Shown here: positions 10,597-51,848 of the stretch, one piece after another
How positions within the stretch are numbered: position 1 is the stretch's first letter
How the letters are laid out: every line of letters begins with the position of its first letter
Made by a program: the position numbers and the translations under genes
Assembly (NCBI GenBank): GCA_937924495.1
Contig: CALDSS010000136.1
Location: 1 to 52,199 of the forward strand
Direction: 5' to 3'
Source: an uncultured Saprospiraceae bacterium
GTDB lineage: Bacteria; Bacteroidota; Bacteroidia; Chitinophagales; Saprospiraceae
DNA length: 52,199 bases
Notes under the pieces: generated by a model
What the model saw: the letters and a program-made list of their open reading frames with translations, nothing else
The model's database searches: none
Told to the model about the DNA's origin: nothing

Positions 10597-11224
10597 ATGA
10601 AAAATTTTCTAAAAACCGATTATTTTCAAACATTAAATTCACTTTTAAGGGGGGGGGAGTAAAGCCTCACTTCTAAAAATTTCGTTTTCTCTTCTTTTTA
10701 TTACTGCTGCTTTTTCTTGTGGGAAGGAGCAGATGCTGGAAATAAATAAATCTGCTCCTAAAAGCACTATTATTTCCGAAAGAACAAATGATGATTGTTC
10801 TTGTACTTTAACCCCTTTTTCAGCTACTGATATTAATCCTTTTCAAAGCTGGCAGGTAGGTATTTTTGACCCATCTAACCCATTACAATTGGATAAACTA
10901 GGGGGTGGAATAGGTATTGGAGCACCTGTTGGAGATGTTACTTCTGCTGTTTTTGTTCCTGGAGATGATCGTTTTATCTTCATCACTCTAATTCCAGATT
11001 TAGACACTAATCCAATAATTACGATAGTAGTTACTTGTACAGGAGTTAATGCCGATGGTAGCACGAGATATTTTCCACCTCAATATTTTACTTTTGAGTG
11101 GGAAAATGGAGTGCCACAAGATTCAAATGGGCTTTTTAGAAATTCTAGAGCTTTCGCCATAGATATTCCAAAAGATTGCGATGTAAGGGAGGATGTTCCT
11201 GATTGCCATCCTAATTGTCCATAA
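10597..11224 (+). CDS. Lipoprotein gene, frame-disrupted by a poly-G tract (putative phase-off allele)
   Basis: ATG at 10597 reads MKNFLKTDYFQTLNSLLRGGE* with G9; with G8 it would read MKNFLKTDYFQTLNSLLRGGSKASLLKISFSLLFITAAFSCGKEQMLEINKS... through 11224. Automatic ORF starts at 10733, inside the mature region. Confidence 0.7.
10649..10657 (+). repeat. G9 homopolymer tract inside the lipoprotein N-terminal coding region
   Basis: acttttaa-GGGGGGGGG-agtaaa. Confidence 0.97.
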
Positions 11225-13679: not shown

Positions 13680-13710
13680 TTGTTTCCACAACTATCAATC
13701 GTTAGTTTTG
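13680..13710 (+). promoter_or_regulatory. Bacteroidota sigma-A promoter for the E1 gene
   Basis: TTG-N20-TAGTTTTG (TAnnTTTG). Confidence 0.65.
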
Positions 13711-28370: not shown

Positions 28371-28401
28371 TTGCACTCTTAACAAAACCATGTTACATTT
28401 G
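28371..28401 (+). promoter_or_regulatory. Promoter for tRNA-Asp
   Basis: TTG-N20-TACATTTG. Confidence 0.7.
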
Positions 28402-44926: not shown

Positions 44927-44958
44927 CAAATTTAAAACAATTTGTTTTATAAAATCAA
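44927..44958 (-). promoter_or_regulatory. Promoter for the glucosaminidase gene
   Basis: Minus strand TTG-N21-TAAATTTG. Confidence 0.65.
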
Positions 44959-45054
44959 TATTAAAACAAAAATATTTAAAACTTTTTGGTAATTGTATTT
45001 AAAAACATCCTCAACTAATTGATAATCAGCCTGTTTTACCGTTGAATTTTTTTT

Positions 45055-47634: not shown

Positions 47635-48684
47635 CTATTTAGCTGCTTCCGCTTTCTCTGGCTTTTCCTCTTTCACTTCTTCTTCCTTATTCGGAGCATA
47701 ATAAGCTTTGATTTTTTCTTCAACTTCCAAGGCTAACTCTGGATTGTCTTTGAAAAAGTTCTTTGCCCCTTCGCGACCTTGAGCAATTTTAGCACCATCG
47801 TAGCTATACCAAGAACCACTCTTCTCTACGATATCTGCTTCAACACCGTGGTCAACGATTTCACCTACTTTCGAGATTCCCTCACCGAAAACGATATCGA
47901 ATTCAGCAATACGGAATGGTGGCGCTAATTTGTTTTTCACGACTTTCACTTTTACGTGATTCGCAACCACTGCTCCATCCTTATTTTTGATAGCCGCACC
48001 TGATTTACGAATATCCAAACGGATAGAAGCGTAGAATTTCAATGCGTTACCACCCGTCGTTGTTTCAGGGTTACCGAACATTACACCAATCTTCTCACGT
48101 AACTGGTTGATGAAAATACAACAACATCCTGTACGACCGATAGAACCAGTCAACTTACGCATCGCCTGAGACATCAAACGTGCTTGAAGACCCATTTTAG
48201 AATCTCCCATCTCACCTTCAATCTCACTTCGTGGAACCAAAGCTGCAACAGAATCAATCACAATAATATCAATCGCACCTGAGCGAATCAGGTTTTCAGT
48301 AATTTCTAATGCTTGCTCTCCATTGTCTGGCTGAGAAATCAATAATTCCTCAACATTTACACCAAGGCTTTCTGCATAGAATCTATCGAATGCATGCTCT
48401 GCATCAACGATAGCAGCAATACCACCTTTCTTTTGACACTCCGCAATAGCATGAATTGCCAAAGTCGTTTTACCTGATGATTCAGGGCCATATATCTCAA
48501 CAATACGCCCTTTTGGAAAACCATGAATACCTAATGCAATATCCAACCCTAAAGAACCAGTAGGAATGGTATCTATATCAACTACTTGTTTGTCGCCAAG
48601 ACGCATGACGGTACCTTTACCATAAGCTTTGTCTAGTTTGTCAATAGCTAACTGTAGCATTTTTTCTTTGTCTGTATTCGCCAT
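47635..48684 (-). CDS. recA: Recombinase RecA
   Basis: [92 protein letters not shown]. Confidence 0.98.
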
Positions 48685-48728
48685 GAAACTTTGTATTTTA
48701 AAAATCTAAAAATTGTTTTAATGCGGTG

Positions 48729-48760
48729 CAAATATAAAACTTTTTGTTTAAAAAAATCAA
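48729..48760 (-). promoter_or_regulatory. recA promoter
   Basis: Minus strand TTG-N21-TATATTTG. Confidence 0.7.
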
Positions 48761-48914
48761 TTTAAAACAAAAATGTTTGTTAAATTTTAACACATACGTG
48801 TTTTTTGCCCTTAAATATATGGAATATGAGTGGTTTTGGGGATATGATGAAGATTAAATCTTCTGCAGTTCTAAACTGGGAAAAGTATTTCTATAAAATT
48901 ATATGTTAAATATT

Positions 48915-48947
48915 TTGAGATCGAGGGGGGGGGGGATCGTATATTTG
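48915..48947 (+). promoter_or_regulatory. Candidate promoter with G11 tract in the spacer
   Basis: TTG(48915-48917)-N22-TATATTTG(48940-48947); 11 of the 22 spacer bases are the G tract. Confidence 0.6.
48925..48935 (+). repeat. G11 homopolymer tract
   Basis: gatcga-GGGGGGGGGGG-atcg. Confidence 0.97.
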
Positions 48948-49167
48948 TAATAACTAAACGAAATGAACTAAATAAATGAGACCTTGAAGAAACCAATAGA
49001 TATGGAGAGATTCCTTTCGTTTTAAGACTATTACTGCTTTATAATCAAGTTTGGAATTAAGTGCTTTTAAGAGCAATAACGCTCTAAAAAGTGTGTAATC
49101 AAAAGGCTGCTGCGATCAATTTTGCAGACAGAAAGCAACAGCCAATTTTTAAACATAAATTTTAAAA

Positions 49168-49428
49168 ATGGAAATTATGAAAAAATTTTCAATGGATTGT
49201 ATTTCTTTAGGGATTTTAGTGATAGGAATTATTTTTTCCTCCTGCCAAAAAGATAGCTCCCTAATTTTCACAAATTCCTCGGATGGAAAAATCTCAATTA
49301 GAAATGAAGATGGACTATGCGCCTTTTACATGAGTTATGATATAGAATCTCTAACCACTACTCGCATAAAAGAAGAGGCACAGCAAGAACATTTAAACAT
49401 ATTTGATAAAGAATCAAGAATGCTCTGA
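49168..49428 (+). CDS. Small lipoprotein, ~83-86 aa
   Basis: MKKFSMDCISLGILVIGIIFSSCQKDSS lipobox. Confidence 0.6.
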   Translation: MEIMKKFSMDCISLGILVIGIIFSSCQKDSSLIFTNSSDGKISIRNEDGLCAFYMSYDIESLTTTRIKEEAQQEHLNIFDKESRML

Positions 49429-49461
49429 GGCGACTGGTGGATTCTTTAGAACAGATTTAAG

Positions 49462-50640
49462 ATGATTATGAAAAAGTGTTTTATAATTTTATTAGTTATT
49501 TTAGGCTGCTCAAAACAGGAACAGCCGAATCCTTCCAATCCAAGTACAATTTGGAAAACCGAATTCACAAACGATGTTTTAGCAGCAGCCATTTATCCTC
49601 CAATAATCTATAAAGATTTGGTACTGGTTGGTCACTTTACATTAACACATGATCCAAAATTTATCGCCTTTGATAAACATACAGGAGATAAACTTTGGGA
49701 ATGGAATGACTTTTATAATGACTGGGAAACTGGACATTTTAATAGTTATCAATATGAAAATCTCTGGATTTTTACAACTGGCCCAAGGGTCTATGCAATA
49801 AATTTAGATACAGGGGAAACGGAATGGAAGACACATGCTCCTGAAACAGGAGATGTAAGATTAGATGGAATTGATAAGAAAATTTTTCACGTTCGAATTT
49901 TTGGAGACATAAATCAAGGTAATCGAATTGAACAAATGGTAATGTGTGATATTTTTAAAGGTCAGTGGAAAGAAGTTTTTCAACTTGAGCAATACAACCA
50001 TTTGCAGCCTTCTATCAATGACTTTGTTATTGATGTTAATGAAAAAAGCGATACCCTCATTTGGTTTGTTGATTTCAGATATGATTTTTCACAGAATAAT
50101 GAATACCACTTAAAAGTTTTTAATCTAACAAAAGACTCTTTTGTAGTTGATGAAAAACTAGCTGATCTCCAAATTGGAGAAATGCCTGTAATTATCAATG
50201 ACAACGTCATATTTGGAGGTGAAAATATAGTCTGTTATGACAGAAATACTTACAAGCAAAAATGGGTAAATCCTTCCATTCATGGTGATCCGTTTACTTT
50301 TGATAATATGCTTTTTATTGATGAGGAAATTGGTAGCCCTGTTCATCACCTGCGTCTTAATCCTGAAACTGGAAAAGTGATATGGAATACGCAAACCTCA
50401 GGCAGTAGTAGTGATTTGACATACAGAGATAAAAGGCTGTTTTTTATAGGAGGTGGAGATGGTAAATTGCATGGGATAGAAGCAGAAACGGGAGAATATT
50501 TTTGGCATTTTGAAGCCCCTGAATTGAAGCAAAATTCAAATCTGTGGTTTGACGAATCCATTAGCGTTGATAAGGAAACAGGAAGGATTTATACTTGTGA
50601 CTTTAAGAACATTATCTGCTACTCTCCCCCCAACAAATGA
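49462..50640 (+). CDS. PQQ-like beta-propeller lipoprotein, paralog 1
   Basis: LVILGCSKQEQ lipobox; repeats IAFDKHTGDKLWEW, YAINLDTGETEWKT, RLNPETGKVIWNT, HGIEAETGEYFWHF. Confidence 0.85.
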   Translation: MIMKKCFIILLVILGCSKQEQPNPSNPSTIWKTEFTNDVLAAAIYPPIIYKDLVLVGHFTLTHDPKFIAFDKHTGDKLWEWNDFYNDWETGHFNSYQYENLWIFTTGPRVYAINLDTGETEWKTHAPETGDVRLDGIDKKIFHVRIFGDINQGNRIEQMVMCDIFKGQWKEVFQLEQYNHLQPSINDFVIDVNEKSDTLIWFVDFRYDFSQNNEYHLKVFNLTKDSFVVDEKLADLQIGEMPVIINDNVIFGGENIVCYDRNTYKQKWVNPSIHGDPFTFDNMLFIDEEIGSPVHHLRLNPETGKVIWNTQTSGSSSDLTYRDKRLFFIGGGDGKLHGIEAETGEYFWHFEAPELKQNSNLWFDESISVDKETGRIYTCDFKNIICYSPPNK

Positions 50641-50666: not shown

Positions 50667-51848
50667 GTGACTATGAAAAAAAATATTCTAATTTTATTAA
50701 TTATTATTGGCTGCTCCCCTTTGGAGCAGCCGATGCCTTCCAGTCCAAATCCTATTTGGAAAACTAAGTTTATAGGAGATATAATTGCAACATCTTTTTA
50801 TCCACCAGTTATTCATGATGATAAAGTTATTATTAGTCGTTTTCCAATTCCTTATGATTCAAAAATAATGGCATCTGATAAAAATACAGGTGAGATGCTT
50901 TGGGAATGGGATGACTTTTTTCACGACTGGGAAACAGGTAGTTCATTTAAAGGTTATCAATATGAAAACTTGTGGATATTTTCGACTGGACCGAGAGTGT
51001 ATGCTATAAACCTTGATAACGGAGAAACAGTTTGGAAAACACATGCTCCTGAATCAGGTGATGTGAGATTAAAAGGAATTGGAAGGAAGGTTTTTCACAT
51101 GCAGATTTCTGGTGACATCAATCAAGCTAACAGAGTAAATAAATTATTTGTTAGTGACGTACAAAAAGGGAACTGGAAGGAAGTTTTCAGCTTACTTCAA
51201 ACAGACTCTTTACAACCCTCTTTTTCATATGATTTTCTTATTGATGTCAATTTAAAAGGAGATACTCTTATTTGGTTTAACGACATAATGCATAATTATT
51301 CACAAAATATTAGTTACAATCTAAAGGTATTCAATCTGCGTTTGGATTCTTTTGTAGTAGATCGAGAACTTACTGATCTAAAGGCAAGTCAAATGCCTGT
51401 GGTCATTGGTGATAATATAATTTTTGGAGGCTTACAAATCGTTTGTTACGACAGAAATACTTATAAGGTAAAATGGGTTAATCGAACTATCCACGGCGAT
51501 CCTTTTGCATTTGATGGAATGCTTTTTATTAATGAAGAAACAGGTATCCCTGCTCATCATCTTCGACTCGATCCAGATACGGGAGATGAGATATGGAAGA
51601 CCCAAACATCAGGTAGTAGTAGTGATTTAGTTTTCAAAGAGAATAGACTATTTTTCATTGGGGGTGGAGATGGAAAATTACATGGTCTCCATGCTGAGAC
51701 AGGAGAATATTTTTGGCATTTTGAGGCTCCTGAATTAAAAGAAAATTCAAATTTATGGTTTGATAGATCAATTAGTATTGATCAAGAAACAGGAAGAATT
51801 TATACTTGTGATTTTAAAAATATCATCTGTTATCCACCACCTAATTAA
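50667..51848 (+). CDS. PQQ-like beta-propeller lipoprotein, paralog 2 (tandem duplicate)
   Basis: IIIGCSPLEQ lipobox; same propeller repeats, strongly similar to the preceding ORF. Confidence 0.85.
   Translation: MTMKKNILILLIIIGCSPLEQPMPSSPNPIWKTKFIGDIIATSFYPPVIHDDKVIISRFPIPYDSKIMASDKNTGEMLWEWDDFFHDWETGSSFKGYQYENLWIFSTGPRVYAINLDNGETVWKTHAPESGDVRLKGIGRKVFHMQISGDINQANRVNKLFVSDVQKGNWKEVFSLLQTDSLQPSFSYDFLIDVNLKGDTLIWFNDIMHNYSQNISYNLKVFNLRLDSFVVDRELTDLKASQMPVVIGDNIIFGGLQIVCYDRNTYKVKWVNRTIHGDPFAFDGMLFINEETGIPAHHLRLDPDTGDEIWKTQTSGSSSDLVFKENRLFFIGGGDGKLHGLHAETGEYFWHFEAPELKENSNLWFDRSISIDQETGRIYTCDFKNIICYPPPN

Follow-up and report, generated by a model that had tools for sequence, protein, structure and literature searches.

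Homopolymer tracts in the spacers of Bacteroidota promoters: candidate multi-copy phase switches ahead of lipoprotein and secreted-protein operons in Saprospiraceae

Results

A lipoprotein operon is preceded by a promoter with a G11 spacer tract

The window, by which we mean the whole 52,199-nt stretch of DNA that was analysed, belongs to a draft assembly of an uncultured Saprospiraceae bacterium (3.26 Mb in 211 contigs, 85.9% complete; genome G000 below). It carries an operon of three lipoprotein genes behind a leader and a promoter-like sequence, with the following features:

48914-48917, + strand: −33 element TTTG (inside TTTTG), read from the sequence and retained in relatives
48918-48939, + strand: 22-nt spacer AGATCGA-G11-ATCG, read from the sequence
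48925-48935, + strand: G11 tract within the 22-nt spacer, read from the sequence; a homopolymer is likewise placed in 9/9 readable leader copies of the genus
48940-48947, + strand: −7 element TATATTTG, read from the sequence; consensus from PMC7366714
48950-49176, + strand: leader (5' UTR, ~225 nt), multi-copy in the genus
49027-49054, + strand: conserved leader block ACTATTACTGCTTTATAATCAAGTTTGG, from the alignment
49105-49143, + strand: GC-rich hairpin GGCTGCTGC...GCAACAGCC, then AATTTTT; anchor of covariance model R1, z about −1 to −2.6
49177-49428, + strand: 83-aa lipoprotein, without a relative found in the genus
49462-50640, + strand: PQQ-propeller lipoprotein 1 (Pfam PQQ_2, 1.3e-17), with a homologue in the G005 C216 operon
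50667-51848, + strand: PQQ-propeller lipoprotein 2, 67% identical to lipoprotein 1; ATG 50673 is an alternative start

TATATTTG conforms to TAnnTTTG, the −7 box of promoters read by the Bacteroidota primary sigma factor (sigma-ABfr), whose consensus boxes lie at about −33 and −7, i.e. with a spacer near 20 nt (PMC7366714). The −33 box TTTG, sought at ~20 nt, stands at N22 and is thus 1-2 nt too far, and the core spacer holds a homopolymer of at least 8 nt, as in the porA, tp0126 and vlp promoters considered in the Discussion. The preliminary description of this DNA, which had read TTG (48915-48917), a 22-nt spacer with G11 and the −7 box at 48940-48947, is exact on rereading the sequence. Transcription, which in this class of promoter should begin 4-9 nt past the −7 box, would be expected to start at ~48950-48956. 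N20-N21 had also been proposed as the local optimum, from other promoters of the window. These promoters are indeed present (tRNA-Asp at N20, −7 at 28394, + strand; recA at N21, 48736, − strand; 44934, − strand, at N21), as are further N20 matches at 13703 and 15118 (+ strand), and the optimum itself was retained only as a hint, TTG occurring at N21 in 7.7% versus 1.8% and with a slight excess at N20 (n = 91).

Since the consensus positions imply a spacer near 20 nt, N22 may be a weaker state, from which N21 or N20 would be reached by losing one or two Gs. Note that the −33 box is not essential, yet is needed for full activity (PMC2483708), and that F. johnsoniae data, at least as they are cited in PMC7366714, are without a −33 motif. 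As some Bacteroidota have a weak −33 box or none that is detected, spacing may count for less than in sigma-70 promoters, and the G11 allele as the weaker state is a direction to be read with the slight own-genome calibration and the missing F. johnsoniae motif in mind. As a separate observation, the recA promoter region (~48729-48778) and that of the 44934 (− strand) gene (44927-44977) have ~50 bp in common at 86% identity, perhaps a shared regulatory site.

The operon agrees with the preliminary description, a small lipoprotein and two tandem PQQ-propeller lipoproteins separated by gaps of 33 and 26 nt, except that the start codon of the first gene, formerly placed at 49168, is replaced by ATG 49177, which is conserved across leader copies. 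That this first gene is a truncated remnant was considered and rejected, no clear homologue being found. The operon is accessory at this place, because the distance from recA to the gene beyond it is ~0.7 kb in the congeneric genome G004 versus ~3.1 kb in the window.

A run of this length is rare in the promoters of the genome

G11 is the longest G/C run of the whole assembly, which contains eight distinct G/C runs of at least 8 nt; homopolymer lengths in a draft assembly may be wrong by one. Under models of order 0-3, 0.01-0.18 runs of at least 11 nt are expected genome-wide, and the frequency of runs of at least 8 nt is about as predicted (3-19). A G11 somewhere in the genome is thus mildly surprising, and its position within a promoter spacer far more so. 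Over 408 kb of sequence from this genome, a run of at least 8 nt within the 25 nt upstream was found at 2 of 91 promoter-position sites, defined as intergenic TAnnTTTG no more than 300 nt upstream of an ORF. These two, the window promoter and a second one on contig C11, are members of the leader family treated below.

The promoter and its leader are repeated within the genus

A DNA search of six genus genomes with positions 48680-49465 as query returned copies of promoter and leader in G005. The aligned copies have in common the promoter, a block around TGCTTTA..ATCAAGTTTGG and the GC-rich hairpin with AATTTTT shortly upstream of ATTATGAAAAA, and conservation also extends upstream of the −33 element (AAATATGTTAAAA). 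We then used covariance model R1, built on the final 85-nt block of the leader and free of promoter sequence, so that the search was blind to the promoter. It returned 11 copies in three of the six genus genomes, of which G000 has three, G004 two and G005 six; 75 other relatives from beyond the genus gave no match. Two copies lie at contig starts, leaving nine with readable upstream sequence:

G000 C136 (window): G11, spacer 22
G005 C59: G8AG2, spacer 22
G005 C158: G10, −7 box lost through deletion
G004 C189: G8, spacer 20
G000 C11: A13, spacer 23
G004 C158: A14, spacer 23
G005 C216: A12, spacer 21
G000 C44: A11, −33 box not clear where expected
G005 C13: A8, −33 box not clear where expected

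A homopolymer of at least 8 nt, G8-G11 or A8-A14, thus stands shortly upstream of the −7 position in all nine, which are related by descent and do not amount to nine independent events. The poly-A-driven operon on G005 C216 contains a PQQ propeller homologous to those of the window. In G005, the leader blocks on C13 and C271 (L053, L057) are identical across 85 nt, precede different genes and lie at the ends of contigs, which suggests recent duplication or gene conversion, plus assembly breaks at the repeat.

A second leader family shows the same arrangement

A pattern search of 298 genomes of the family gave 23 distinct places versus 7 for the reversed pattern. Most G7 matches were set aside as coding or wrongly spaced, and the matches with at least nine Gs were all intergenic and upstream of ORFs except one coding case; three of them lie in the complete genome G008. 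Counted per genome, the clustering of spacers among promoters found by pattern is weak evidence, and no conclusion is rested on it. The ~360-nt leaders of the three G008 promoters are paralogous to each other, and with one of them as query at least 10 additional places came up in G008 and others in two congeners. The runs are G9, G11, G10, G10, G10, G9 and A14 in G008, and T13, T12, T11, T12 and G9 in the congeners, the exceptions being one copy with an interrupted G run (G008 C26a), one with only A7 and one without a run. Some −7 boxes are imperfect (TATATTTA, TAAATTG). Three paralogues in G120 with nearly identical flanks carry T13, T12 and T11, and three in G008, also with near-identical flanks, carry G10, G10 and G9; flank and tract lengths trade off, as seen in T8GC-G9 (G008 C58) versus T5C-G11AGT (G008 C49).

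Two further observations were made in these searches. In G120, second-family leader copies (C413, C107; L111, L113) follow tandemly arrayed TCCGTTCTAA decamers located at the start of the contig. In G002, a duplicated locus (C836:19352 and 13454; L035, L122) combines a third type of leader with one and the same lipoprotein gene; the tracts before TATATTTG are G7 and G8, and their flanks differ.

Over both leader families, the spacer measures 19-23 nt in every promoter with clear elements. Tract length differs between copies and species while the flanks are conserved, both among the T11/T12/T13 and G9/G10 paralogues and within the genus (G8-G11, A8-A14). The downstream genes encode lipoproteins, T9SS-tailed proteins, reprolysin- and subtilase-like proteases and PQQ propellers, that is, surface or secreted products.

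The arrangement is rare in the phylum and often multi-copy

In a sample of 398 genomes across the phylum, promoters with at least nine Gs in the spacer were found at five places in four other genomes, and the reversed control pattern had 0 matches in the same 398 genomes. The promoters of G356 and G578 (G10-G12, from other families) have spacers of 21, 22 and 22 nt, and the two remaining matches (28 and 29 nt) may be due to chance. The arrangement is therefore rare, but often multi-copy where present: we count three tract-bearing promoters in G000, at least four in G005 and at least eight in G008. The locus that had been described singly is thus one of at least three in its own genome, with many in relatives. 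On the sequences compared, what is independent in this evidence is that the base changes inside either family and that the arrangement recurs, in two leader families and in two further families of the phylum.

The G578 promoters (L067, L069) carry G12 and G10, each at N22, and the small RiPP-precursor-like genes that follow them have the leader peptide KKLRLDxxxVxSFVT in common, making phase-variable peptide production possible there.

Discussion

A candidate spacer-length switch

The preliminary description proposed G11 as a candidate transcriptional phase switch, and the comparison argues for it: base and length of the run vary, its place is fixed, the spacer stays at 19-23 nt and the targets are surface or secreted proteins. 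We favour, with a probability of roughly 0.7, a multi-copy set of phase switches that use the Bacteroidota promoter and act through slipped-strand changes of spacer length. The stretch 48914-48947 would be an active promoter of the primary sigma factor whose spacer holds a homopolymer prone to slippage. Mispairing of slipped strands at replication would add or remove Gs at a high rate, the −33/−7 distance, now 22 nt, would change accordingly, and with it the strength of transcription of the lipoprotein operon, leading to reversible transcriptional phase variation. Interrupted tracts (G8AG2 of G005 C59; G008 C26a) should slip less. The whole would form a set, a homopolymer-spacer promoter plus a conserved leader ahead of different lipoprotein or secreted-protein operons, by which groups of surface and secreted proteins are probably turned on or off in a random manner. 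The benefit would lie in mixed surface and secretome states within one lineage, and lipoproteins, T9SS-tailed proteins and proteases suit phase variation. We lean slightly towards the broader reading in which a dispersed cassette before many unrelated operons of this kind (at least three here, at least eight in G008), each copy slipping independently, produces combinatorial surface and secretome states, beside frame-switching tracts in other secreted-protein genes.

The constant position of the run, its mononucleotide nature and the 19-23-nt spacer, together with variable base and length, fit selection for slippage better than a protein site or DNA shape. The strongest alternative, itself unlikely, is a static role of the homopolymer in tuning promoter strength or DNA shape (bent A/T, stiff G), with length changes that are rare and not used for switching. 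It would accommodate the constant run position, the interrupted tracts and the AT-rich spacers of variable length known from Bacteroidota (PMC7366714), but G, A and T runs, with opposite shape properties, substitute for each other at one place, near-identical paralogues differ in run length, and other promoters of this genome manage without a run. Quite unlikely, too, is a rheostat that does not work through the −33/−7 distance: run length would instead displace an activator or UP-like site upstream with respect to the polymerase, or would change the site of a regulator. Tracts acting in such ways include opc and tprL (treated in PMC7864442) as well as sabA (PMC4081817). The weak −33 box of the phylum, the conservation upstream of −33 and the A-type members that lack a clear −33 box (G000 C44, G005 C13) agree with it, whereas in nearly all members the tract lies between recognisable core elements with a total spacer of 19-23 nt.

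Control at the level of the leader, with the hairpin just before the start codon acting as the true switch, by attenuation or by control of translation, and the tract as a minor element, is highly improbable. The leader and its hairpin are conserved between copies and AATTTTT follows the GC-rich hairpin, but a terminator scan found no intrinsic terminator before the start codon, where one had been suspected by eye, and the homopolymer in two unrelated leader families would be left unexplained. The hairpin is conserved in sequence, with 0 compensatory pairs in 5 sequences, so that a covarying RNA structure is unsupported, and neither the leader nor its relatives match Rfam. Such control could exist in addition to tract switching. 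A chance run or an assembly artefact, for which the expected number of G/C runs of at least 8 nt and the draft metagenome assembly would speak, is scarcely credible given the same placement in 9/9 leader copies from three species and in a second family from another genus. A Bacteroides-type invertible promoter was rejected, no inverted repeats flanking the promoter; the only repeat pair spanning it, an AT-rich 18-mer (89%) reaching from the recA promoter to the leader, is read as composition.

Relation to known phase-variable promoters

The closest precedents for slippage-driven spacing are porA of Neisseria meningitidis and tp0126 of Treponema pallidum, in which poly-G lies between −35 and −10 (PMC7864442). 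As there, a poly-G inside the core spacer would be expected to shift the boxes to or from their optimal distance and to control a surface protein. Those cases are experimentally tested single genes with sigma-70 promoters and a 17-bp optimum, whereas the present ones are of the Bacteroidota −33/−7 type with ~20 bp, and are multi-copy candidates with a common leader and G, A or T runs. In Mycoplasma hyorhinis, the vlp genes form a multi-gene set behind homopolymer-bearing promoters (PMC10502178), several surface-lipoprotein genes each having its own, independently switchable. Here, too, several genes stand behind related tract-bearing promoters within one genome (G000, G005, G008), but they are not one paralogous family, the first genes being the PQQ operon, protease-like, T9SS-tailed and orphan lipoprotein genes. 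The vlp genes are clustered, of one protein family and from a mollicute, whereas these promoters are dispersed before different operons, with G, A or T runs; no homology is claimed. The Bordetella fim promoters have a poly-C at or upstream of −35 that acts via an activator. The Neisseria opc promoter also carries a poly-C (PMC7864442). In both, run length alters distances in the promoter region of surface-structure genes, as proposed here, but the tract is at or upstream of −35 and activator-mediated rather than between the core boxes. The invertible promoters of Bacteroides (reviewed in PMC11868660) share with the present ones the phylum and the transcriptional phase variation of surface functions, and differ in relying on site-specific inversion between inverted repeats.

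In the open-access literature on homopolymer and repeat phase variation, we found no description of a homopolymer-spacer promoter in Bacteroidota, though accounts may exist outside it. Phase variation in this phylum is known mainly as DNA inversion, and promoter switching by slippage mainly from host-adapted bacteria of other phyla. If true, our reading would provide a second source of cell-to-cell diversity for a major environmental phylum, and would offer a natural test of how strictly the Bacteroidota primary sigma factor requires its −33/−7 spacing, which is poorly understood.

Beside the promoters, runs of G9, C9 and C8 occur between start codon and signal peptide in this genome (window 10649-10657, + strand; G000:C109, L003; G000:C146, L011). 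As assembled, these frames stop early, and with the run one base shorter they give secreted-protein or lipoprotein ORFs of 208, 508 and 481 aa or more, so that these start-proximal runs look like translational phase switches.
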